Shown here piece by piece: positions 43,398-61,188 of a DNA stretch of 64,000 nucleotides (positions within the stretch are counted from its first letter, which is position 1; each line of letters starts with the position of its first letter). The stretch is taken from positions 186,001 through 250,000 of the forward strand of contig JAVXUO010002708.1 in the NCBI GenBank assembly GCA_033065855.1, read 5' to 3'. This DNA is from Escallonia rubra (lineage: Eukaryota > Streptophyta > Magnoliopsida > Escalloniales > Escalloniaceae). The notes under the pieces are model-generated. The model saw nothing but the letters and a program-made list of their open reading frames with translations. It did not search any database and was not told where the DNA came from. Both the position numbers and the translations under genes were made by a program.

Positions 43398-43932
43398 AAC
43401 TTCAAAACTCGTATAAACAAACTTAAACAAATCACAATTTGACAAGGCCAACACGATCCGTTTCTGATTTATGCTTCCAACCACAAATCATCAATTTCCA
43501 AATCTCCCCAAGAACATAAACTATAAATTTTCATTCCCCGGAAATTTCTGACTCAGTCCTAACTCCTAAATAATCAGGTGGGGACTAGGGACTGGGCCCT
43601 AAACATGCCATGCCCTCTTATCCTTGCCTTAGAATCCCCTCCACTAACAGGATGCAACCAAAAGTAAGCAAAAGTTAAAAAGGAATTTGACATCATGGTT
43701 CTACATGTCGGGAAGTCACTGGTGGCCATCGCCCACCAGCTTTGTCACTTATGCCTGTCATGGCATTAATTTCTTCAGATGCTCCAACTTCTCACGTACG
43801 TTTTCTGCATATATCACTTGAACAAAATCATGATGACAAGCACAGTGTGTGGATCTCAGTATTCCAACCTATATATAATTCGATCAATATGCTATTTTGG
43901 GCAAATGAGATTGAAGGGTCATTTGTAGAGTC

Positions 43933-44062
43933 GAAATGGACATGACAAAGATTTGAGAGAGATTAAGGATGAAGAGTGCAGTGCGAAAATATTGTAGATT
44001 TGAAATGGACATGACAAAGATTTGAGAGAGGTTAAGGATGAAGAGTGCAGTGCGAAGATCTC
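43933..44062 (+). repeat. 69-bp tandem duplication
   Basis: 'gaaatggacatgacaaagat' through 'gaagagtgcagtgcgaa' at 43933 is repeated from 44002 with one or two differences, so the duplication is recent. Confidence 0.9.
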
Positions 44063-45645: not shown

Positions 45646-45938
45646 ATGAGCTCAAATAAGGTCTTTCTAATCACTGCATCAACTATAATCTTCATATCCA
45701 CCCTGTTATCAGTTGACTACTTTAGGCTTCTCTCTCATCATTCCGACGCCGAGAAGTCGTCCGACAGTGAGTTTCAGCATTGGGAAGTGATACCAGTGGT
45801 GGGTGCAGTTGGACCTGAAAGCTTTACATTTGACCCCAGTGGTGACGGTCCATACACCGGCGTATCGGATGGCAGGATAATCAAGTGGCAAGAACATGAA
45901 CGCCGGTGGATCGATTTCGCCGTTACTTCTCCGGTGAG
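45646..45938 (+). CDS. SSL-B exon 1
   Basis: Encodes residues 1-97 plus two bases. MSSNKVFLITASTIIFISTL is the leader; VGAVGPESFTFDP starts the propeller. An earlier GT (CCG|GTGAGG, 45934) would break the phase, so the donor at 45939 is preferred. Confidence 0.87.
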
Positions 45939-48900
45939 GTGTGCTCCCTATCTTACCATGAAATTCAATTTTTAATACCCATATGCAGCGCATGCAAACT
46001 TCGTGTTCATAGATACGTATTGGTTGAGTTCACGTAACAGTTCTCATGCACAGTGCACTTTATTGGTGGTGCATGAGGCCGTGGTTTCTTATGATCAGCA
46101 ACCACACTAACACATAACATTTTGGCTACCGATTGCCAGTTGGTGCTTCCAAATTTTGACACTTCCTGCTTTGCTTGATTGTGCCTTGTGTACGACATTT
46201 TTACAGAGTAATAGTACATGGCGTGTCATTTGCAATTTACTTTTGCACTAATAACAAGTAATTGAGGTGTGTAAGTAGGCTTTTTTTCTTACCAAATTAA
46301 GTCGTATAGGTGAATACCAGACAAGTTGTTTACTTTTGCACTAGGCTGGCCAGCATATTGAGAAACATTAAAAGGCCTACGTTTTAGTGATGCCTACCCA
46401 AAAGAATTTCGGATGCTCTATAGTTTGCAGTTTCTTCTCCTTATTCTTACTTTCGCCAACCTTAAAAACTACAGTTTGTAAGAATAGAGATAACCATGCC
46501 CTATATCCTTTAGCAATATGGGGCCTCATCTTCTAAGCACCAAGAAAAATAGTGATCTCTTTACGTACAATGATTCAGATTGACCGTTGTTTTACTCTGT
46601 AGATCGGGTCTCACATAGGTTCGACTCTCGTGGACAAGATTTTAGGATGAACAAATCATACCATTCTGCGGTGCACAAAAGAGAAACAACAAATTTATTT
46701 TACTATTTTTAATGTTCTTCCATTCGCACAGAACGAACAAAAGAAAAAGGAACCTAATTACCTCTCAAAACAAGGCCACTGTGTCTGCCTAAAAGGATGC
46801 TGATATCTCTCCTACAGCGTTTTCGACATAAGCCAAGCTAAGCCATGCTGTACCCACCAAATCTCTTCTTGGGCGTACTTACATAAGAATGTGTTCGCCT
46901 AGTAGATGCGATCACAATAAGTTGTCACTTGGAACTACGTTTAACAGGATCAATAGTCCTATAGGCATAGTAATATATCTGAGTTGTCACTTGGACTATT
47001 TCTGAGAAATGAGGGGGAGAAAGAGTACCAAGTATGCTGTGGAAATATTGAGTCTTCCATAGTAAGTTCGTCGCATGTAATTAACTCTAGACCACATGGT
47101 CCGACAATAAGTGTATCAATGTATACGTATAAACTGTACTCAGAATGCACCTGGTCTAAAGCACATGCGACTTATGACAAAAAAATTCATAGAAGTAACT
47201 GAGAGACAACCAACACATTCATTGCCCTGAGATAATTCGTGACTGCCTTGGTAATTAGGGCTACCCTGTGTACCAGGAGAAAATACATTATTTTGGTCTC
47301 CATTTAGTACAGGTTTTCTACTAAATATACTACTTTGTTTTTAATTAGTGATGCTAAAATAATTATCGTTGAAAGTGTTTGCATAAATGTCACTAATAAT
47401 ATTTAACGACTACTAATAATCGGTACATGGGGAGTTATAGCCTCTTTGACAATCCTAGTTTGAAGCCAAAACGAGGCTTTTGATAATACGCATTCTTACC
47501 TTTAAAATATGAGACAATACAATCGATTCAATGAGAAATATTCATTGTGAGTGAGACCGATGGCATACTATATGATGGACTCTGACGATAGACATGAAAG
47601 TTTACTCCCTTTTGATTAAGTTTTTGATCTTAAGATAGTTACAACTCCTCCTCGGATATCCAAAATTAATATAAGTATAGTTAACGACATTTCTACTAAC
47701 ATTTACAATGATATTTTTTAACAGCACATCTTCAGTCTCATCAAATAATACTCCCTCCGTTCCTAAAAAATTGATCATATTTTCTTTTTGGGACGTCCCA
47801 CAAAAAGTGATCACTTCCAAATTAGCAAATATTCTATAGGTATTTTTACATACTTACCATTTTTATATTTTTTTTATTCTATTTCTCTCACCACATTTAA
47901 TTCTCTGTCAACTCATTTTCTCTCTCCTAGCCCACCACTTTACACTTTTTTATTTTATTTCTCTCTCCACATTTAACACTCTATCAACCAATTTTTTCTC
48001 TCATGGCTCACTCTCTTCCCCCTCTCTCTCTAAAGGGTAAAATGAGAAAGACACACAATATATAACTTAAATCCTTAATATACGTGCAAAGTAAAATGGA
48101 TCAATCTTTCAGGAACAGAGGGAGTAGCTACTAAAAATATTTAACGACCATATCGCTACACAAGAGTTTTAATCTTCCTATAACCTCGATAACAGTCAAA
48201 GTTATTCCTTTCTTTTTAGATAGAGAGCACTAATGATGTATAATTGATATCGGCTATTTTGTGTTGCGTCTCACTCACTCACATTGGTGACAACAAAGAA
48301 ATATTTTCTCAAATTCGGTTGCTAAGCTTACACTGACTACCCTATCACCCATTTCTCTTAATCCACCTGCCCCGAGCTCCCAATCTGCACTATAATAGAA
48401 ATAGCTGGTTTAGAATGCCAAGAACTATGGCACCTGAGGAACTTTGGTACCACAAACTATATATCGAGAAACGGGGTAGTATTATCAACAACTTTCGTTA
48501 AAAAACTCTAATTTGAAGTTCGTAAAGTTATGTCCAAAATAATTATCCTACCGAAGGCAGCAGAGGAAGAGGAATCAAACTAGTGAAAACGTGACTTAGA
48601 TTTACGAGGTAAGTCTTTATGCCCTCTCGTTTATTATTCTCGTCGTGCTTGTAAAATTGGTAGGAGTCCATGCCAAACCCTCCTTTTTACCAAAAAAAAA
48701 AAAAAGGAGTTAAAAAGTCAGGTTCGTCATAACAGTTATCGGTGTCGAAAAACTGTGACCCTCTTATCGTGGAATTTGTTATACATTTTACAGTTAACAA
48801 AGATGACAAGTGAATCACAAAAATGGCAAGTAAATCCCAAGCTTAGCTCTAAAACCAAAGTTTCCCCTTTGTTACTTCTCACAACATTGAATTTGTCTAC

Positions 48901-51900
48901 AGAGATGGCTGTGATGGGTCGCGTGGAACAGAACACATTTGTGGCCGCCCATTGGGCCTTGCCTTTGATGAAAATACTGGAGATCTCTATATTGCGGATG
49001 CGTATTTGGGCCTTCTTGTTGTTGGGGGCTACGGTGGCCTGGCTACCAAGGTTGCGACACAAGCCCAAGGTGTTCCATTCAGATTCACCAATGGCTTGGA
49101 CATTCACCCGAGTAACGGGGTTGTCTACTTCACTGACAGCAGCTCAAGTTATCAACGGAGGTATGCTTTATATTTCTCCGTCAATCCCACTTTTTTAAGC
49201 TTTAACGAATGCCTTTTAATGAAGACCTAGAGTTGCAAATTGACTAGCTCCTATGTCAATGTACAAATGGTGTTACGTACTTTGACAATAGGCCTAGCGT
49301 GCTTCTGCTGTGTAAGAAGATCATACCTATCAGCTGTCTGCATTTGTGGTACTTTAGCTTTTTATCAAGAAAGGGTCTAGAGGCCTTAACTAGCTGAGTA
49401 AATATGCGAATTCTCTCTAGATACGGAGCAAGATCTTGGGCTCAGTTACAATGGAGTGAGTTGCGACTAGGGATGCAACTTAGTTATGTTGGGTTCGGTT
49501 CTGATGTAGAGGAAAAACACCACCTCTAAGATGAGGCCACATGTCATCATCCAGACACATCAAAACCGCCACACCATTAATATGGAAGTGAGTAAAGATG
49601 AGTTACTCAGGGAGTAACTCCGGGGTATTAACCAGACACTAATGAGGAGTAATCATCCATGATGATGAGTAACCCTCCTATTAATCTGATAACCCCATAA
49701 TTAAACATAAATAACTCCCCACTGAGCTGGGAACACTATAAAAGGAGTGGGGAAGAATATGTCAGGTAAGTAAGAGAGTTGAACTTACACTTTATCAAGT
49801 CTCAAACATATTCTGACTTAAGCATCGGAGATTTTATGCCGAAAATCCTTCAGGCGAGTCACCGGTGTCGATTTTGCTGTGCAGGTCTATTCTCGAAGCG
49901 CGTCCTGAGTTCTCTCCACAACATTTTGGCGCCATCCGTGGGAACGACATTCGTGAATATATTATGTCTCAAAATCCCACACCACCAGCTCAGCAAGGTG
50001 GGGCAACTCCACCAATTTTACCCTTGCCACCAATCTGTGATTCACTTCGTGAGGGAGCCGCATCGCCGTCCTCCAGTCGCGGAAAAAAGGTTGCGACAAC
50101 TGCTACCGTAGCACGAACCACCGCTGTTGCAGTACCTATAATTCCTGCAGTAATGTCAGATGCCGTCGCGACAGCATCAATACCCGTAACGGTAATTCCA
50201 CCCGCTGTGAAAATCGTTCCTCCCTCCATAAACACTGTCCTTCCTCCGCTCCAAACTGTCAACGTGTCCGCACCTACCACAACGTTACCAGTCATGAGCA
50301 ACCAAGCTGACTTAATGGCCGTTCTTCGGGCTATGCAACAATCCATCGAACGGTTACAAGCAGCTGTGGACAATCCACCTCCGCAATTAGAACCTCTCCA
50401 ACCTCCAAACGAGCAACATGTAACTGGTACGCGGAGGCAGCCAATTAGACATCGATTAAATTTCCATGAGGAACCAGGAACCTCAAAGACTCCGGAAGGA
50501 ATACAAGTAGAAGATGGACAATCCGACGATGAACGGCGCAACCCGAGGTCCAGAAAATAAGAAGAAAGTTCTTACGAAGCTCATTCTACCAAGAGGGACC
50601 CTTATTATAACCCTGGTGAACATCGTGCCGAACGATACACCAGTGCTCCAGTCATCGTTGGGCGACCATTCATAGAAGAGGTTGATCACTTCCCTACGCC
50701 GCAGAACTTCAAGATGCCTCCTTGTGAATCATACGATGGCACCGGAGACCCGATGGAGCACTTAGCTTGTTTCACTTCTGGTATGAATCTACACTTAGTC
50801 CTTGACCAAATTATGTGCCGAGCGTTCCCGGTAACCTTGGAAGGAGCTGCCCACGTATGGGTTCAACACCGCGCACCCCGCTCTATCTCCTGCTGGGCCC
50901 AGTTGACGAAATCCTTCCGCAACAATTTTTTAACAAGTCAGATACAAAGGAAAAACTCTTTGGCTCTTTTCCGTATCGTACAAGGACCCAAGGAGTCCTT
51001 GAAATCCTACTACGCCCGCTTCAACACTGAGAAACTCCTCATTGACAATTTGGATTCAGGGGTGACTTTTGCGGCAATGGCAAGAGGTGTGCGTCCGGGG
51101 ACACCATTGCGTTTCTCGCTGAATAAAAGACCTCCGGAGCATATGACTGACCTACTTGATCGGGTAGAGAAATATCTCCGGGCTGAAGAGGATTCCATGA
51201 CCACCACCCAAAATGAAGGAATTTCTGGTCAGAAGAGGCGTGATCGCCCGGAGGGGAAGATACCCGAAGAACCTAAACGCTCACGGACGACCCTTTCCAA
51301 GCACTTCACCCCTCTTACAACATCTCGGGAACATATCCTCAACCAGATCAAAGGCCAAGATATCTTAAAGTGGCCCAAGTCGATGAGGATGCCCGCCGAT
51401 AGAAGAGATGCCCAGCTCTATTGCCAATTCCATAAGGATCATGGTCATACGACTAAAGAATGTAAAGTTCTTCGGCGAGAGATCGAGAATCTTATTGCAA
51501 GAGGGCACCTCAAACAATTTGTCAAGACAAATGAACGCCAAGGAGGTAAGCGGGGAGGCGGACAAAAAAGGCATGACGATTCGGCCCCTAAGGAATCCCC
51601 GGTGATAAACACAATATCTGGAAGCCTAAGTACTGAGGGAACCTCAAGATCAGCTCGAAACGCTTACGCACGACAAGTCAACTTGACGCAGGGACCAGCT
51701 AAGCGCCCAAAGGCCCCCGCCACTATAAGTTTTGATGATACAGATCTTGAGGAAGTCATTACACCGGACGATGACACTCTGGTTATCTCCCTCCAAATAG
51801 ATACGTACGTCATCAAACGCATCTTAGTGGACACAGGAAGCTCCGCGGACATTCTCTTTGAAGAAGCATTCTCTCAAATAAAGGTATCGAAAGAATGAAT

Positions 51901-54900
51901 CCGTCCGGTCTCCTCGCCGCTGTACGGCTTCACGGGAGCATCCGCGCCAGTTGAGGGAGTAATCTCCCTCACTGTAGTTGCTGGATCATACCCGCTTCAA
52001 GCTACGCAATCAATCGACTTCCTGGTAGTCAAGATCAAGTCAGCCTATAATGGAATATTAGGGCGAGCGGGCCTCAACAAATTACAAGCTATAGCCTCAA
52101 CGTTTCACCTGTGTATGAAATTCCCAACTCCCAACGGAATATGAGTAGTAAATGGAGATCAAGCTATAGCACGCAAGTGTTACATGGCTTTGTGCAAAGT
52201 AGAGGAGGCGCTTGCCATTGAAGACCAGCGTGATGAACATACTTTCAGGCGAGCTGAGCCGGTGGAAGAACTTGTCTCCATAACACTAGGAGCAGACGGG
52301 AGTCACCAGTTAAAGATAGGTTCCACGCTGGAGCCAGCTCTTCGTGATCGACTGGTATCATTCCTTCGCTCAAATGCGGATGTCTTCGCATGGAGCGCCG
52401 TAGATATGCCAGGAATAGATCCATCCATAATGACCCATCGTCTCTCAGTTGATCCAAGCTGTAAATCGGTGAAGCAGAAAAAGCGATCCTTCGCACCGGA
52501 AAGGCAAACGATCATCAAACAAGAGGTTGACAAGCTTCTAGAAGTAAAGTTCATTGCTGAAATCAACTATCCGACATGGGTGGCTAATGTAGTCATGGTT
52601 CCAAAGGCTGGGACGAACAAGTGGAGAATATGCATTGACTACACTGATTTGAAGAAGGCTTGCCCCAAGGACAGCTACCCTCTGCCTCGGATCGACACAC
52701 TGATAGATGCAACCTTGGGGCATGAGTTGCTTAGCTTCATGGATGCCTTCTCCGGTTATAATTAGATTCGCATGCACGATGACGATGTGGAAAAAAACGG
52801 CTTTCATTACCATCGAAGGTCTCTTTTTCTACAAAGTCATGCCCTTCGGCTTGAAGAACGCAGGTGCCACCAACCAACGGCTTGTTGATAAGATCTTTAA
52901 GCCTTTGCTAGGTAAAACCATGGAAGTTTATGTTGACGACATGCTTGTCAAAAGCCTTCGTGCAGCTGATCACATTGCCGACCTTGAGGAATGTTTTAAT
53001 CTCTTGCGCAAATACAAAATGCGGCTCAATCTGGCCAAGTGTGCATTTGGGGTCTCATCAGGCAAGTTCTTAGGTTTCATGGTCTCGTACAGAGGTATAG
53101 AAGCCAATCCTGAAAACATCAAGGTCATACAAGACATCACCGCACCGAAGAGAGTGAAAGAGGTGCAGATACTAACTCGACGTATAGTGGCACTTGGCAG
53201 ATTTCTCTCTAAGTCTGCTGAGAGATGTTTGCCTTTCTTTAAAGCCTTGAAGAACATAAAAAACTTCGAGTGGACCGCCGAGTGCCAAAATTCCTTTGAA
53301 GCCTTGAAAGAGTATCTGACGCCCCCCCCGCTCCTATCCAAACCACTTGCTGGGGAGGAGCTCTTCTTGTATTTAGACATAGCAGAGTCGGTTGTAAGTG
53401 CGGTGCTTGTCCGTAACCAGAACAGTAAGCAACTCCATATATACTATGTGAGCCAAGTACTACAAGGTGCTGAGTTACGTTATCCAGATACAGAAAAACT
53501 TGCATTCGCTCTCTTGATCGCATCTCGAAATTTTCAACCATACTTTTAGTCCCACTCCATAACAGTGCTCACGGACAAGCCCTTACGGCGAATACTCCAC
53601 AAGCCCGATGTCTCAGGACGACTAGTCCCATGGTCCATTGAACTCGGGGAGTTCGACATCCACTATAAGCCACGCCCTTCTATCAAAGGTCAGGCCCTCG
53701 CTGACTTCATTGTTGAGTGTACTTTGCCCATCGAAGACGAGGAGCAGCTATCCCAGCAGGATAGGCCTTTCACCTGGACCCTCCATGTGGATGGTTCTTC
53801 CAATGCAAACGGAAGTGGAGCTGGCTTAATCCTTCATGGTCTTGAAAACCTCGTAGTTGAATATGCCCTATGATTTGACTTTCCCTCTTCAAACAATGAA
53901 GCTGAATACGAGGCTTTTATTGCTGGGATGCACCTTGCAAAGACTATGCGAGCAGAGGCACTTCATGCCCATAGTGATTCACAGCTGGTCGTCAAGCAGT
54001 TCTCTGGAGAGTATGAAGCACGAGGCGTGAAAATGGCTGAATACCTCCAAAAAGCCAAAAGGCTTGCAGAGACTTTTGTGTATTTCAACATCACTCAAGT
54101 CAGCCGAGAAGACAATACGTCAGCTGACGCACTTTCACCCTTAGCGTCCCTCGACCAGTCTGGGCTTAGTCGAACAGTTCACTTGGAACTCCTCTACGAA
54201 CCAAGTATTAATGGTCGTGAAGTCATGCAAACCGAGCATGAACCATCATGGATGAACCCAATTAAATCCTATCTTGCGGATGGTATCCTACCAGCCGATT
54301 AGAAACAAGCTCGAGGGATCATTTCACGCACGGCCCGATACACGATTGTTGATGACGTGCTGTACAAAAGATTTTTTACACTCCCCTACCTTCGTTGCCT
54401 TACCCTTACGGAAGCCACATATGCTCTGCGCGAGGTGCACGAGGGAATATGTGGTCAACACTTGGGTGGGAAAGCCCTCGCACACAAAATCCTTCGTCAA
54501 GGCTATTACTGGCCGACAATACAGCAAGACGCGCTGGAGCATACAAAAAAAATGTGATGCTTGTCAACGGTTCTCGCCTGTGCCAAAGCTTGGTCCTACC
54601 GCATTGACTACTTTGAACAGTTCTATTCCCTTCGCCGTGTGGGGCATGGATATATTGGGACCTTTTGCCCGGCTTCAGCCCATCGGAAATTTGTAATCGT
54701 TGCTATTGATTATTTCACTAAGTGGGTCGAAGCCCTATCCTCCATCACAGAGCAGAAGTGTGAAGACTTCTTCTGGCGCTCGGTTGTCTGCCATTTTGGA
54801 ATCCCTCGTGTACTTGTCACCGACAATGGAAGACAATTCGACAACCACATCTTTTGTGTGTTTTGCGCTAATTTATCAATTGAACAACGTTTCACTTCCG

Positions 54901-57900
54901 TGGCTCACCCACAAACAAACGGCCAGACGGAGGTACCCAATCGTACCCTCCTCCAAGGCCTAAAGTAGAAGCTCGATGGTGCGGAAGGACTCTGGGTTGA
55001 CGAACTCCATAAGATCCTTTGGGCTTATCAAACAACGACAAGGAACCCAACAGGCGATACTCCCTTCAACTTGGCCTTTGGCACGGAGGCACTAATCCCG
55101 GTTGAGATTGGTCTACCCTTTCTTTGTCTATTCACTTATGACCCTAACATGAACGATGAGGCGTTACGTTGCAATCTTGACCTCTTAGACGAACAAAGGG
55201 ATCAAGCACAGCTCCGATTAGCCGCATATCAGCAATGTGTGGCCAGATATCACGATCGACGCATTCGCCTTCGGGCTTTCTGCATTGGAGACCTCGTCCT
55301 TCGCCGAGTAGAAGCCTCAACCCCTCTCGATGCCATAGGCAAGCTGTCACCAAACTGGGAAGGCCCTTATCGCGTGACCAAGTATGGTGGGCCTGGATCA
55401 TATCACTTAGAACATTTGGATGGAAAAAGCATCCCACGAACGTGGAATACTACCAATTTACGACGATACTACGCATGAGCAAGATCAAAGAGGGGCCACA
55501 CATACCTTATCTTTATACTTGATTTTTGGATCCTGCTCATGCTTGGACAGCCCACTATGTTACGAGTTTTACGGCTTTGCACAGCCTTAGCTTTTTTCTT
55601 TTTTATTGCCATTGGTGTACTTCTCTTCTATTATGAATGCAAGAGAATTTGGCAGAAGTAGATGCAAAATAAGACATTGAATATATTAGAAATTGAGTCA
55701 ACTGCATCAAGGCAACAAAAGAAGAGTCCCCTAAAATTAAGTCTAGAACAAAGGAAACTAGACTATTCATCCTGATCAGTCGCACCCTCGGGCATTCCCA
55801 TCTCCCGAATTTGAGTCTCGGCCAAAGATTGCTGCCTTGAAATTGTCCTGGAAGTTGACCCGGATGCACCTAGCGATCGGCCAACAGAAGGGCTAGCTAT
55901 TGCACATGAACTTGCACCTTTCTTTCGTTCGGCCTCTTCTGCTCGAAGAGCGTCATCCGTAGCGATCTCACGGGCAAACTTGTGCTCATAAATGCTCAAG
56001 TCAAACTCATGATGATGTTTTTGAATATCAGTCTTGCACTCATTATAGCCATGCACGAGAGCCCTTTTCGAATCACGGAAGCGCTGATCTGTAAAAGTCT
56101 TGGATCTCTTGAACATCTGCACTGCTTGAAGTGCCACGGACGACTTCTCAGCCTCCGATTTATCAATACGAGCAGATAACCCCTCATTGGCCAGTTCCAG
56201 TCGCTCTACCTTCTTGCTCAAATCATCGACTTTCTTCTCGGCCTCCCTACGACAGTTATTCTCTACCATTACCTTCTTTTGTTCCTCATCCAAGACTTTA
56301 TCTGCGGCAATAAGCTTCTCTGCGCCAATCTGCACCTGCGCCATAGCCTACATAACAAAAGAAGTTAGACACCAGAACTTTTGATATAGAAATTAAAGAG
56401 AAGAAATCAAACCTGCGACATAAGTTGGACCATGCCATTTGCTGTATCAGCAACACCATAAGCAGACAATGTCTTGCGATCCATATGAATGATCGCGTGA
56501 CGGGACCAGTCCCATGCTGTACGAGGAGACTTGAAGACCGACTCCTCAACAGATATACCCCAGGCAGGACGATGAAGAATGTCAGCTCGAACAGAGGACG
56601 ACGTAGCTCTACTCCCACCTCGGCCCAATGCTTTTCTTTTTCTTGGAGCTTCTTTAGACTTGTCTACCGTAGACAAGCCAAGAACAAACTCTTCTGCTTG
56701 CGGTGGAACCTCTTTTGCTTGAGGCCCGAAAACCAGTGTGTCAAAATCCAAGTCTTGCATTTCCTCCTCTTCAATGCCATGAATGGAAGCCAATCCGTCG
56801 GGAATAATGTCCCCCAACACCCCTTGAAAATTAAACAACGAAGGCTCGCCTTGTGCTCGGGATGACATATTTCCTGCACAGAGAGCAAAAGTAAGGCACC
56901 ATTAAAAGATTCAATGCGCAGGCTCTGGTAAGAACATTTACCAGGGTCGTTCTCGCCCTCTTCTTCCTCCTCGTCGAAATCTTGAGGTTCAGGGGGAAAG
57001 ATGATGCCGCATTCGCAAAGTTGAGCGTTACTCAAAGGATATCTGGACTCTAAGGACGCAGCTCCTTTGAGCTTCTCAATATGCTCGAGGTCAATCTCCG
57101 ACAAATCTTTTTCCTTTAATTTATTACATGGTCTAGTGTCACACTCAGCTAGCCACTCGTTACAAACTTCCCTCCGTTGAGACTTAGGCAATTTAACAAA
57201 CAAAAACCACTCCTTCCAGTTATGGTTGGATGACGGTGGATAGGGAAATAACTTCGCTTCGGATTTTGGGTGCCGACTTAAGAAATACCAACCTACTTGT
57301 TTGGTGATTGTGCATATGGTGAAAAACCATCTGAATACCCTAACTCTAGGCCTCAAACCAAGTTTATGACATTGATATATGAAAAAACTCATAAACCGCC
57401 ACGCATGAGGGGAAAATTGGCCAGGTGCAAGGCCATATAGGTTCAAGACTCTAATAAAAAAAGGATGGAGAGGAACCCTAAAGCCATTGATAAACATACC
57501 CCAATAAACACCAATTTCATCAATGGTGGCCATGTTGGCTGATTCATCCTCTTCGGGAAGCCTAAGTTTTACAATGGGAGGAATCTCACAGCGCTCCCGA
57601 AGGAGTTTCAAGTCATAGCTGCTAAGTTTGCTTCTAAGTGTATGCGCGCCAAAAGGTTTAGGAGATTGGGCGCTCTCCCTTAAAACCTCTTTGGCAGGGA
57701 CTCCCCTCGGCTCCTGGAAAGGAACCAAAGGGACACCAGTTTCCAAAAACAGGGGGTCAAAAGTAGGTTCTACCCTGACGCCTTGAGCGTCAACATTAGG
57801 CACAAAAACACATTCTTCATCTTCATTAGATATAATTTCATATCAAAAGCAAAAGATTTCAAAAAAAAAGGGAGGGGGTTTGGAGCTTACTTGGTGAAAC

Positions 57901-60900
57901 TGAAGATCTTCAAAAGCCCAAACAAATCGCCTCTCTCGACTCCACTCAAGAAATGAGAAGTGTGTGGGAAAAGAAACTTTTTTACCCCTTATATAGAGAT
58001 GAAAGACTCATCCAACGGGTAAGATTCCATGACCGTTGAAATACCATGGACACGTGGCATGATCCGATGAAATTACTAGGGGGCAAAATTACCCGTTTAC
58101 CCCACAACGATAAACAAAACGTATCCGAGTAGATGAAAACCTATGGTGTCGAGAAGACGAGCACCTATGGTGCCTCCACTCGACCAAACCAAGCACCTCT
58201 ACTCGGCTGGCCGAGTAGACGAGCACCTATCATGACTCTACTCGACCAAGCCGAGTAGACGAGCACTTATGATGCCTCTACTCGGCCAAGCCGAGTAGAC
58301 GATCACATATGACGCCTCTATTCGGCCAAGCCGAGTAGACGAGAACCCAGGCCGAGTAGACGAGCACCGATAACGCCTCTACTCGGCCAAGCCGAGTAGA
58401 CGAGCACCTATGACGCCTCTACTCGGCCAAGCCGAGTAGACGAGCATCTATGGTGCCTCTACTAGGCCAAGCCGAGTAGAAGAGCACCTATCAAGCCTCT
58501 ACTCGGCAAAGCCGAGTAGATGAGCACCTATCACTGACGCCTTTACTCGGCCAAGCTGAGTAGACGAGCACCTATGATGCCTCTACTCGGCCAAGCAGGT
58601 AGACGAGAACCGATAACGCCTCTACTCGGCCAAGCCGAACAGACGAGCACCTATCACACCTTTACTCGGCCAAGCCGAGTAGACGAGCACCTATCACGCC
58701 TCTACTTGGCCAAGCCGAGCAGACGAGCACCCAAAGTGCCTCTACTCGGCCAAGCCGAGCAGACGAGCACCCAAAGTGCCTCTACTCGGCCAAGCCGAGC
58801 AGGCGAGCACCCAAAGTGCCTCTACTCAGCCAAGCCGAGTAGACGAGCACCTGATGTTTTTTTTTCACTCAGCCAAAACAATGACCCCTTTTCTTGATCA
58901 AGCCGAGTAGGGGGGCCCCTCATTGTACTACTACATGATCTACATGAGTAGAAAAACTTATGAAATCTACCATCTACAATTCCATATTCTCCTTCAAAGA
59001 ACATGAAATGGGGGGGCAAGTGATGTAGAAGAAAAATATCACCTATAAGATGAGGCCACGTGTCATCATCCAGACACATCAAAACCGCCACACCATTAAT
59101 ATGAAAGTGAGTAAAGATGAATTACTCAGGAGTAACTCCGGGGTATTAACCAGACACTAATGAGGAGTAACCATCCATAATGATGAGTAACCCCCCCATT
59201 AATCTGGTAACCTCATAATAACTCCCCACTAAGCTGGGAGCCCTATAAAAGGAGTGGAGAATAATATGTCAGGTAGGTAAGAGAGTTAAACTTACACTTT
59301 ACTAAGTCTCAAACATATTCTGACTTAAGTATCGGAGATTTCCCGCCGAAAATCCTTCCGGCGAGTCACCGGTGTCGGTTTTGCTGTGCAGGTCTATTCA
59401 CGAAGCGCGTCCTGAGTTGTCTCCACAACAGGTTCCACCTCAACCCGACTGTGGTGGCGGCCAGTGGTTGATGGAGGTGGATGTGCAATTTCTAACAGGT
59501 GGTCAGTGGAAGGCAGTAGCCAGCAACGGCAGTTGGCATTAGCTGGCGGGGGCAGTGTCGGTAGCAGGCACGGGGTGTTGGCGGCCAAAGGTCGGTAGGA
59601 GTGGCAGGTGGCGACTGTCGGTGGGCAGTGGAGGTGGTAGGGGAGATGGTCGAGTTGTGGTCGGCAGAGATGGGGGCCAAGGGCGATATCAGAGGTCAAG
59701 GATGACAGTTGTTAGCGGTGCCTAGCAAGCGCCTGCAGTGGCAGGCACGTGATCGTGAACAGTGGCTGTCAAGAATGACAGGTGGTAGCGACTAGCGATG
59801 CAACGACAGTTTGGAAGCTGTGGTATAACTGTGTAAAATATTTGAATGAGACCCTTTTAGTTTACTTTCTTTCTTGGATTAAAAAAGTTGATTAAAAAAA
59901 TTAAATCCTATATACCGTGAATTCCATATTAACTAGATCGGTGATGTCCAAAGGAAACATCCAAATAGGTTATTGTGTTATAAAAACCAAATTGCGCATA
60001 TAACTTTCATATATTTTGCAACATAAAGAACTTTAAAACTCGCTAAATTTAAGCAACAAGTGGAGGCTTTGGTGATCACAAAGCGTTATGAATGGTCAAA
60101 TTTACATGCTTCTATTAAGCATATCATGCCAGTCACAATAAGTGTGAATAAACCATACGGTGGGTTTGCAGACGATCATGCGGCCTCTTGCGGTTCGTTG
60201 GTTCATCTCGTTTGTAGTGTATAGGGTGTGGTTGTTTTTACAATTTTTTGCTTTCTTGTATAGCTTAAGGTTTGCATGGATAGGCGATTAGGGCTTTGTT
60301 AGGTCGGTTAGATTGCTAGAACATTGTAAGCCTGTTTATTTATTTTCTTTATTGACGGTACAATGTTCTCTTCTTAGGGTTGTATTATTAGCATGACGTG
60401 AGGCTATGCACTCTCGTCATGTGGCACTTTTAGAGAGAGAGTATGAGTTATATTTTCTTGTCAGTGTACCATGTAAGTTGATGACAAACCAAGGATCTTT
60501 TGCCCGCCCTTCTTCCACAAACAGTAGCTACTCACGTAAAGAGTCGTCTCGCTTAAAGAGCTATTCACTAGAGACTAATTGTTGATGAATCTTCCCTTCC
60601 TCTTAAAAATTTTGCAGGAATTACATGTCTGTGATAATCAGTGGAGAGAAAACGGGAAGGCTAATGACATTCAACCCCAAAACCAAAGAAACAACTGTTC
60701 TCCTCCACAATCTCTCATTTCCAAATGGAGTTGCACTAAGCCAAAATGGTGAGTTCCTCCTTGTGGCAGAGACCACAAATTGCAGAATATTGAAGCTTTG
60801 GCTAGAAACATCAAAAGCCGGAACAGTTGAAGTTTTTGCACAACTCCCTGGATTTCCAGATAATATTCGAAGGAATCAGAAGGGGGAGTTTTGGGTGGGA

Positions 60901-61188
60901 ATTCATTCAAGAAGAAGCAGCTTCTTGAAAAGGGTTCTCTCATTTACTTGGATAGGGAGTACATTTGTTAATTACTTTCCAGTTGACATTACAAACTTAG
61001 ATTCATATGCAGCTAAGTTGAAAGGGAGTGGATTGGCAGTGAAGTTGGGGGAGAATGGTGAGATATTAGAACTGATAGAGGACAAAAAGGGAAAGATATG
61101 GAAGTCAGCCAGTGAAGTAATGGAGAGACATGGTTATCTATTGATTGGCTCTGTAAAGATGCCATTTTTGGTTAAGCTAAACAAGTAG
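45646..61188 (+). CDS. Strictosidine synthase-like protein SSL-B (three exons)
   Basis: Joins 45646-45938, 48903-49160 and 60618-61188: 1122 nt, 373 aa. Both introns are phase 2, at the same positions as in SSL-A (GTGAG|GTGTGC ... GTCTACAG|A; CGGAG|GTATGC ... TTTTGCAG|G). A hydrophobic leader (residues 6-23) suggests the secretory pathway. Exon 1 carries GAVGPESFTFDPSGDGPYTG; exon 2 DGCDGSRGTEHICGRPLGL, LYIADAYLGLLVVGG and YFTDSSSSYQRR; exon 3 FPNGVALSQN, AETTNCRI, LPGFPDNIRRNQKGEFWVG and a divergent C-terminus ending KMPFLVKLNK. As in SSL-A, Ser (SASEVMERHG) sits where I place the catalytic Glu of strictosidine synthase. The protein is clearly diverged from SSL-A, so the duplication is not recent. 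Intron 2 (11.5 kb) holds an entire gypsy element in the sense orientation. The frame is intact; whether such an intron is spliced efficiently is unknown. Confidence 0.88.
47751..48124. mobile_element. Stowaway-type MITE in SSL-B intron 1
   Basis: The ends CTCCCTCCGTTCCTAAAAAA and (reverse complement) CTCCCTCTGTTCCTGAAAGA are flanked by TA on both sides (47749-47750, 48125-48126). CTCCCTCCGT ends plus TA duplication are diagnostic of Stowaway (Tc1/mariner) MITEs. 374 bp, no coding capacity. Confidence 0.92.
48903..49160 (+). CDS. SSL-B exon 2
   Basis: Encodes GCDGSRGTEHICGRPLGLAF through FTDSSSSYQRR. 258 nt, phase 2 on both sides. The acceptor is GTCTACAG at 48895-48902; it is required to keep TEHICGRP in frame with exon 1. 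Confidence 0.9.
49502..49923 (+). repeat. 5' LTR of the gypsy element
   Basis: 422 bp, TGATGTAG...CCACAACA, with a TATA box CTATAAAAGG (TATAAAA at 49737-49743). Matches the 3' LTR apart from about 30 substitutions, a 1-bp gap and an 11-bp gap. Confidence 0.93.
49924..49945 (+). promoter_or_regulatory. Candidate primer-binding site
   Basis: TTTTGGCGCCATCCGTGGGA directly follows the 5' LTR. TGGCGCC complements the 3' end of a tRNA such as Asp; the remainder matches poorly, so the tRNA identity is uncertain. Confidence 0.55.
49964..52144 (+). pseudogene. Gypsy gag and aspartic protease, interrupted by stops
   Basis: One continuous frame from the ATG at 49964 with stops at 50558 (TAA), 51896 (TGA) and 52142 (TGA). 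The N-terminal part is Pro/Ala/Val-rich. The gag domain starts near 50714 (MPPCESYDGTGDPMEHLACF, then MCRAFPVTLEGAAHVW). A zinc-knuckle-like QFHKDHGHTTKECKVLRREI lies at about 51425-51485. The protease active site DTGSSADILF is at 51840-51869. Gag would form the virus-like particle and protease would cut the polyprotein. Downstream, VEGVISLTVVAG and YNGILGRAGLNKLQA continue the protease region normally. The stops make it non-functional in cis. Confidence 0.9.
52145..54302 (+). pseudogene. Gypsy reverse transcriptase, RNase H and second RNase H, broken
   Basis: Reverse transcriptase: PTWVANVVMVPKAGTNKWRI, CIDYTDLKKACPKDSYPLPR and the catalytic YVDD at 52929-52940. RNase H of the gypsy type follows (LFLYLDIAESVVSAVLVRNQ, ELRYPDTEKLAFALL). 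After a linker comes a second, archaeal-type RNase H (TWTLHVDGSSNANGSGAGLI, NNEAEYEAFIAGM, HSDSQLVVKQ), typical of Tat elements. Damage: stops at 52763 (TAG), 53547 (TAG), 53871 (TGA) and 54300 (TAG), and a +1 shift at a run of seven A (52791-52797). It copied the element RNA into DNA when alive. Confidence 0.9.
54303..55478 (+). pseudogene. Gypsy integrase, broken
   Basis: Zinc-binding start: EVHEGICGQHLGGKALAHKI, then, after a +1 shift at a run of eight A (54545-54552), CDACQRF. Catalytic core: WGMDILGP (first Asp), another frame change near 54670, VIVAIDYFTKWVEA, VTDNGRQFD (second Asp) and HPQTNGQTEVPNRTLL (Glu). A TAG stop at 54966 precedes the C-terminal part, which ends with GDLVLRRV, LSPNWEGPYRV and NLRRYYA at 55478. 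No chromodomain, as usual for Tat. It would have inserted the element cDNA; it is now inactive. Confidence 0.88.
55763..57842 (-). CDS. Antisense spliced frame in the gypsy element (putative gypsy-type transposon family)
   Basis: Minus-strand exons 57803-56942, 56873-56413 and 56347-55763 give about 635 codons with no stop or frameshift. The introns are 68 and 65 bp: CCTG|GTAAAT ... CTCTGTGCAG|GA (phase 1) and TCGCAG|GTTTGA ... TTATGTAG|GC (phase 0), and both restore the frame. Exon 1 has a region (LKLLRERCEIP, FINGFRVPLHPFF, LNLYGLAPGQFSPHAWRFMS, FRWFFTI) that I recognise as the plant 'putative gypsy type transposon' (Transposase_28-like) family; it ends acidic (DEEEEEGEND). Exon 2 has a basic PRKRK. 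Exon 3 is a predicted coiled coil with a Ser-rich tail. Antisense extra frames of this sort are known from Tat elements; their function is unknown. The first codon of the frame at 57803 is GTG; the frame is open back to 57842 without an ATG, and the first in-frame Met is near residue 90, so the start is unresolved. Confidence 0.75.
57988..57996 (-). promoter_or_regulatory. Candidate TATA box for the antisense frame
   Basis: On the minus strand CTATATAAG lies in 'tctctatataaggggt', about 185 bases before the first codon of the antisense frame. A possible leader-intron donor (CCAA|GTAAGC, about 57890) followed by a pyrimidine-rich tract lies between. Placement supports independent antisense transcription, but this is inference. 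Confidence 0.5.
58150..58860. repeat. Array of ~18 hairpin-forming 40-bp repeats
   Basis: A unit of about 40 bp, 'gacgagcacctatgaYgcct' followed by CTACTCGGCCAAGCCGAGTA, is repeated about 18 times with substitutions and small indels. The second half is an inverted repeat (CTACTCGGC, loop CAA, GCCGAGTAG), so most units can form a 9-bp stem. The array sits between the antisense frame and the 3' LTR, where Tat-type elements often carry tandem repeats. Frames through it are by-products. Confidence 0.92.
59004..59020 (+). promoter_or_regulatory. Polypurine tract
   Basis: GAAATGGGGGGGCAAG immediately precedes the 3' LTR; a purine run here primes plus-strand DNA synthesis in LTR retrotransposons. 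The C near its end is slightly unusual. Confidence 0.75.
59021..59430 (+). repeat. 3' LTR of the gypsy element
   Basis: 410 bp, TGATGTAG...CCACAACA, followed by the target duplication GGTTC. The TATA box CTATAAAAGG is conserved, so it could initiate transcription into the rest of SSL-B intron 2 and exon 3. Confidence 0.93.
59436..60617 (+). other. Remainder of SSL-B intron 2, no gene
   Basis: Begins with GGTGG/GGCAGTGG-type G-rich minisatellite-like DNA (59440-59820), which produces chance frames, then AT-rich intron ending in a pyrimidine-rich tract and TTTTGCAG. Confidence 0.5.
60618..61188 (+). CDS. SSL-B exon 3
   Basis: Encodes NYMSVIISGEKTGRLMTFNP through KMPFLVKLNK and the TAG stop: the C-terminal blades with LPGFPDNIRRNQKGEFWVGI. 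The acceptor TTTTGCAG|G restores the Arg codon split after exon 2. Confidence 0.9.

Follow-up and report, generated by a model that had tools for sequence, protein, structure and literature searches.

A three-exon antisense TRP28 frame in the pol-3' LTR interval of a Retand-type Ty3/gypsy retrotransposon from Escallonia

Retand elements and the Escallonia copy

Antisense open reading frames (ORFs) encoding a TRP28 domain are a known feature of Retand elements, and their function is given as unknown in the accessible parts of both a recent survey (PMC11963269) and a 2020 review (PMC7264820). According to the survey, 97% of the Retand clusters with recent activity have TRP28 genes, and it places the length of the region between pol and the 3' LTR at 2,933-6,566 bp (PMC11963269), while the review calls for antisense and spliced transcripts to be examined (PMC7264820). 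Plant LTR elements generally lack introns, Ogre and EVADE being the exceptions named in the available text of a 2025 review (PMC12786077). A term search for "intron" in the texts of PMC11963269 and PMC7264820 returned nothing, and our literature search brought up no intron-bearing antisense accessory gene in plants; as the original publications on Grande, Retand and the extra ORFs lay outside the reach of that search, no priority is claimed for antisense introns.

In Escallonia, a Retand-type Ty3/gypsy element carries a three-exon frame on the minus strand, between pol and the 3' LTR. Within the window (the whole 64-kb stretch of DNA that was analysed), the element is composed as follows:

49497..49501 and 59431..59435: left and right copies of the target-site duplication, GGTTC, 5 bp
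49502..49923, plus strand: 5' LTR, with TG...CA ends
50714..51898, plus strand: gag (PF03732), from ORF frames and Pfam
52184..55478, plus strand: pol (RT-RNaseH-INT), interrupted by stops and frame changes
59021..59430, plus strand: 3' LTR

The LTRs, the target-site duplication, and gag and pol of Ty3/gypsy type are as in the Retand lineage, as are the antisense ORF with TRP28 (PF04195) and the region of ~3,540 bp between pol and the 3' LTR (55479-59020), which falls inside the published range; a G-rich tract precedes the 3' LTR. Three frame changes, as many as the initial annotation had reported for gag-pol, were seen in the ORF frames of pol, which also contains stops. The alignment of the 5' with the 3' LTR has 30 mismatches in 410 sites (K80 0.078). 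At the substitution rate of grasses, 1.3e-8 per site per year, this divergence corresponds to an insertion age of about 3 million years.

The element is flanked, at 45646-45975 and 60625-61188, by same-strand fragments of a gene resembling strictosidine synthase (PF20067; PF03088), and it has therefore probably inserted into one of the introns of this gene or broken the gene in two. The window also holds a 68-nt direct repeat in tandem at 43923-44059 (69-nt spacing, copies 94% alike), and a search of the 64 kb with Rfam at gathering scores gave no match.

The antisense gene in the window

The gene and the sequences upstream of it are arranged on the minus strand as follows:

58126..58891, minus strand: tandem array of a 40-nt unit with a dyad core, a candidate regulatory target upstream of the TATA box
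57987..57995, minus strand: TATA box (TATATAAGG), candidate own promoter
56942..57833, minus strand: exon 1, with TRP28 (PF04195); 57833 is the start position of the relatives and is not an ATG here
56874..56941, minus strand: intron 1, 68 nt, GT-AG
56413..56873, minus strand: exon 2
56348..56412, minus strand: intron 2, 65 nt, GT-AG
55763..56347, minus strand: exon 3 including the stop codon, encoding the long C-terminal helices

Re-derivation gave the same three exons as had been proposed (57842-56942, 56873-56413 and 56347-55763), joined through GT-AG introns of 68 and 65 nt in phases 1 and 0. The joined frame is free of stops, as had been reported, but it spans 648 codons from 57842 rather than about 635. 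Exon 1 matches the Transposase_28 profile (PF04195, E 1.1e-17), as had been anticipated. The gene was also correctly placed within a gypsy element; however, it is not antisense to gag-pol itself, but occupies the interval between pol and the 3' LTR and is convergent with pol, its stop codon lying ~285 nt from the end of pol. Judged by its sequence, it is aORF-3R, the antisense accessory gene with TRP28 (PF04195) already described from Retand-type elements.

The description of this frame as intact does not hold. The start ATG of the relatives, which is kept in 46 of 47 of them (the exception, L032, has an unaligned 5' end), aligns to 57833, where the window copy has no ATG. Position 57842 is the codon right after an in-frame TGA (57845) and not a start, the ATG at 57841 belongs to another frame that stops at 57772, and the next in-frame ATG is found at 57533. 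Thus, the start codon has been lost from the window copy and the frame is lesioned.

It had further been noted that about four lesions would be expected in this copy by simple proportion and that none is seen. When the 26 substitutions private to the gene of the window copy are placed at random, however, only 0.85 stops are expected, and P(0) is 0.41; extrapolation from the tree tip length (0.032 per site) gives ~2 expected stops and P ~0.13. The stop count being within chance, the window copy needs no special explanation. The 26 private substitutions fall in 1,938 gene sites, and 52 fall in 2,678 pol sites, with L009 and L019 excluded from the pol counts. Private indels are absent from the exons, and pol has two of one base and one of 6. 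The rule used for private sites called no substitutions among 133 sites of the introns and 246 of the leader and promoter, against ~5 expected at the exon rate, and it may undercall where the relatives vary; the leader of the window copy has several private indels. Half of the private gene substitutions are synonymous (13, with 6.9 expected) and half nonsynonymous (13, with 18.3 expected, in addition to the 0.85 stops), and they are distributed 6/5/15 over the codon positions. Such a pattern is a hint that selection acted on the lineage prior to insertion. The window copy itself is a decaying relic without a start codon.

Constraint and splicing across the family

At least 163 exon-3 matches are present in the 566-Mb assembly, and 48 loci picked by exon-3 similarity were aligned with the window. 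One of these (L029), which has no match to exon 1 or 2, was omitted from all gene counts; L032, with its unaligned 5' end and many indels, was omitted from the tree, dN/dS and completeness and retained in the splice, start and TATA counts; and three loci with nonhomologous flanks (L009, L019 and L048) were omitted from the pol frame counts. The protein searches, some of which scored only candidates sharing most words, yielded only Escallonia among the matches listed (E. herrerae and one E. rubra), and consequently the tree has no outgroup. These protein matches place the host as E. herrerae or a close relative of it. The tree separates subfamily A, to which the window copy belongs, from B1-B3, C, D and E (L055).

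Fifteen of the 21 pairs compared span the major groups (A, B, C, D, E), with dN of 0.12-0.28 and dS of at least 1.5. Omega is 0.04-0.09 in 11 of these pairs, the other four being saturated, and 0.07-0.10 in three further between-major-group pairs, all of these values being rough since dS is near saturation. The B1-B2 pair (L039-L040) has an omega of 0.13, and the five within-subfamily pairs range from 0.11 to 0.58; in an example pair between major groups, differences by codon position are 98/71/312. The dN/dS comparison that had been proposed as a check thus gives 0.04-0.10 between major subfamilies where omega is estimable, which is not near 1. The gene and pol of the same copies behave alike (13 pairs compared), and in nine between-subfamily pairs of pol, omega is 0.05-0.09 in the three that are estimable, with six saturated. 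Furthermore, 36 of 37 exon indels that distinguish seven subfamily representatives from the window are multiples of three, and the sole other one is a gap left by the alignment at the junction of the lost intron. These sequence comparisons provide strong evidence that the family is under strong purifying selection at the protein level.

The initial annotation had held that disruption of the frame in most family members would speak against the gene. Taken literally, such disruption is present: one or more stops interrupt 32 of 48 rows, many rows have frameshifts, and by ATG, splice sites and frame only 11 of 47 rows (window counted) are complete, while 36 are not. Yet omega between subfamilies is far below 1, and 36 incomplete rows are as expected of old insertions, which decay after they insert. 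The figure of 11 in 47 is not a genome-wide rate, because the sample was picked by exon-3 similarity, and for the same reason the densities of stops in pol and in the gene were not used. Thus, the choice that had been offered between constraint and chance resolves into both: the family is constrained, and in the window copy the missing stops are within chance and the start is gone. A functionless antisense frame that arose by chance in a dead element would fit the lost start codon, the unremarkable stop count and the many incomplete rows, but it is contradicted by the low family omega, by indels in threes, by conserved splice sites and by the PF04195 match, and it is very improbable.

The gene lies opposite to the integrase in all 38 loci with an integrase match, the other 10 of 48 loci having no such match. 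For three loci (L043, L040 and L034), the third-position divergence of the gene disagrees with that of pol (for L043-L035, 0.23 in the gene vs 0.52 in pol), which suggests recombination between accessory-gene and pol modules.

Both introns are features of the family. GT-AG ends are found at intron 1 in 44 of 48 aligned rows (window counted) and at intron 2 in 40 rows out of the 42 in which this intron is present, and these ends are kept while the bodies of the introns have diverged, with differences at 33-58% of compared sites between major groups. Such conservation of splice sites across divergent copies is what an expressed, spliced gene would show. Intron 2 is missing exactly at its junction in 6 of 6 subfamily C copies, some of which are very close (L049 and L050 tips ~0.002), and in the one C copy tested the gene is still opposite to the integrase. 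Among the exon-3 matches listed, counted by eye, an open frame of at least 256 aa is found in 36 rows, with 235 aa or less in all others; frames of such length are too long for exon 3 alone, which suggests that intron 2 has been lost from many members of subfamily C. Loss is favoured over gain because intron 2 is present in A, B, D and E, in a tree without an outgroup. In the most popular model of intron loss, to go by the accessible text of PMC2614967, DNA copied from spliced RNA recombines with the gene. An exact loss of intron 2 is the outcome expected from this process. The intron that subfamily C has lost is the 3'-most one, and it is the 3'-most intron whose loss the spliced-RNA-copy model favours. 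Intron 2 would then in all likelihood have been lost once, via a DNA copy of spliced RNA, and its exact absence may be read as a mark that splicing has left in the genome. In B rows and in four of six C rows, intron 1 measures 69 nt, and two public gene models (P0006 and P0008) read through it in frame in some copies; with such a length and such a frame, intron retention could yield a longer protein.

Upstream, in 40 of 48 rows, a TATAWA motif precedes the start position by 162-198 nt; the motif is absent from four of five B1 rows. The leader contains, at 57890, a splice-donor-like GTAAG (CAAGTAAGC-like) that is kept in most aligned rows. No acceptor is conserved between this site and the start codon in the aligned rows, and a 5'UTR intron beginning there was considered as a candidate.

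Taken together, these results indicate that the frame very probably represents an antisense TRP28 accessory gene of a Retand-type element that is real in the family, with its own TATA box, two spliceosomal introns and constraint on its sequence. The family gene would, with good reason from its sequence, be transcribed from its own promoter, spliced and translated. Its antisense orientation would let the introns survive reverse transcription, since the genomic RNA that is reverse transcribed presumably carries them in a direction that cannot be spliced. It may instead be the antisense transcript rather than the protein that matters, by overlapping the sense RNA at its 3' end and giving dsRNA or interference. 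The convergent arrangement, with the stop codon so close to the end of pol, would suit such a role, and the possibility is raised in the available text of the 2020 review (PMC7264820). However, neither strong constraint on the protein nor in-frame indels would be expected if only the transcript mattered, and such a role is unlikely, although transcript and protein roles could coexist.

The predicted protein, the dyad array and known systems

The product of the constrained gene is predicted to be about 630-650 aa long in the family, with an N-terminal TRP28 domain, an acidic and then a basic stretch, and long C-terminal helices. PF04195 is the only Pfam family above cut-off in four of four relatives scanned, and a PDB sequence search with a 15-row alignment gave no match at E <= 1. 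An AlphaFold model made with 33 aligned relatives has a mean pLDDT of 41; long helices occupy residues 443-601 of the modelled relative, with block pLDDT of 57-83 over 481-600, and may be read as a coiled coil. Because the model is poor outside these helices, it does not reveal a DNA-binding fold. Given the TRP28 domain, the acidic and basic stretches, the helices and a candidate target in the dyad array, a regulatory or DNA-associated protein is plausible.

On the gene strand, the core of the array reads GCTCG-TCTACTCGGC-nnn-GCCGAGTAGA-GGCG. The core was compared in one copy per subfamily, with C left out. Among the window, A, B2, B3, D and E, 26-29 of its 29 letters are common to each pair, while gene third codon positions in the same pairs are 42-85% identical, and the dyad core is common even to the deepest copy. 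Six B1 pairs have 22-25 of 29 core letters in common, and for B1-B2 (p 0.46) and B1-B3 (p 0.07) core identity is not above third-position identity. As the core was located by a 20-letter motif search, only nine flank letters are free of that selection; between A and E all nine are identical (0.42^9 = 4e-4). The exact core occurs 164 times genome-wide and its reversed control not at all. Counted by eye among the matches listed, 29 of 38 core clusters lie within 3 kb upstream of an exon-3 match on the same strand, and nine have no exon-3 match.

The arms of the array, ~10 nt long, pair well in most units, and subfamily C has related units in which both arms have changed together (only three of its units pass the motif cut-off). 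Both features would be expected if the array folded into a structural RNA hairpin within the genomic transcript, serving packaging, dimerisation or export and unrelated to the antisense protein. However, one-sided changes wobble equally on either strand (190 vs 186 in 465 units), with A (105 to 48) and B1 (12 to 51) leaning in opposite ways, and most subfamilies have kept the unpaired flanks GCTCG and GGCG. We regard a purely structural RNA as rather unlikely, although the wobble test, having shown no overall strand preference, does not separate a DNA site from a hairpin RNA. The array might also be an ordinary minisatellite whose core looks conserved through recombination between subfamilies. 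The disagreement between gene and pol distances noted above means that modules may recombine, and in four of 21 pairs (window-B1, window-B2, window-B3 and B2-B3) the spacers resemble each other more than shuffled ones do; in most pairs, however, they are near the shuffled value and some differ in length, which is unlike recent whole-array exchange. A minisatellite of this kind is likewise somewhat doubtful.

These observations have led to a tentative proposal for the TRP28 protein, in which it would act, perhaps as a dimer, on the dyad array beside its promoter, thereby regulating or de-silencing the element. A predicted coiled-coil dimer would suit a dyad, but this is a fit only, and we consider such an action possible rather than probable. 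A broader version would have the antisense, intron-bearing TRP28 gene and a dyad array recognised by a dimer form a self-contained Retand control module, with VANC-like control or de-silencing, an orientation that keeps the introns, and a subfamily C that testifies to the rare copying of spliced antisense RNA back into the element. This combined scheme is, in our estimate, fairly unlikely as a whole. Nevertheless, the family provides strong evidence of protein-level constraint for TRP28 genes, points to the dyad array as a concrete candidate target, DNA or RNA, and offers a testable route to the function of antisense accessory genes.

As far as the accessible parts of the reports allow, the Escallonia element can be placed among several described systems. 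It resembles the surveyed Retand elements (Vicient 2025, PMC11963269) in its long region between pol and the 3' LTR, its antisense TRP28 ORF and its tandem array, and its LTR and internal sizes are within their published ranges. That survey relied on ORF prediction, whereas here two conserved introns and a dyad core common to subfamilies are found; ORF-based surveys can miss or truncate intron-bearing antisense genes of this type. Gene 23 of Grande (Gomez-Orte 2013, via PMC7264820) is likewise antisense, located in the 3' internal region and equipped with its own promoter, and its product is nuclear. Ogre and EVADE (PMC6317226, PMC12786077) are also plant LTR elements with introns, but these belong to their own gag-pol transcripts and those in Escallonia to an antisense accessory gene; the Escallonia family shows that an accessory gene of an LTR element can keep introns when it is antisense. 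In LTR elements of bdelloid rotifers, accessory ORFs (ORF3) are separate transcriptional units with spliced messages (PMC5408684). These differ in being animal elements with other protein families, and the available text does not state an antisense orientation.

The VANC system of VANDAL elements (PMC5735166) combines an element-encoded accessory protein with a tandem short motif in non-coding element DNA, and in the Escallonia element such a motif is found in non-coding DNA near the accessory gene. However, VANDALs are Mu-like DNA transposons (from a title cited in PMC12844716) and the Escallonia element is an LTR retrotransposon. Furthermore, VANC targets vary considerably between related elements, according to the part of PMC5735166 consulted, whereas the candidate core in Escallonia is largely common to its subfamilies.
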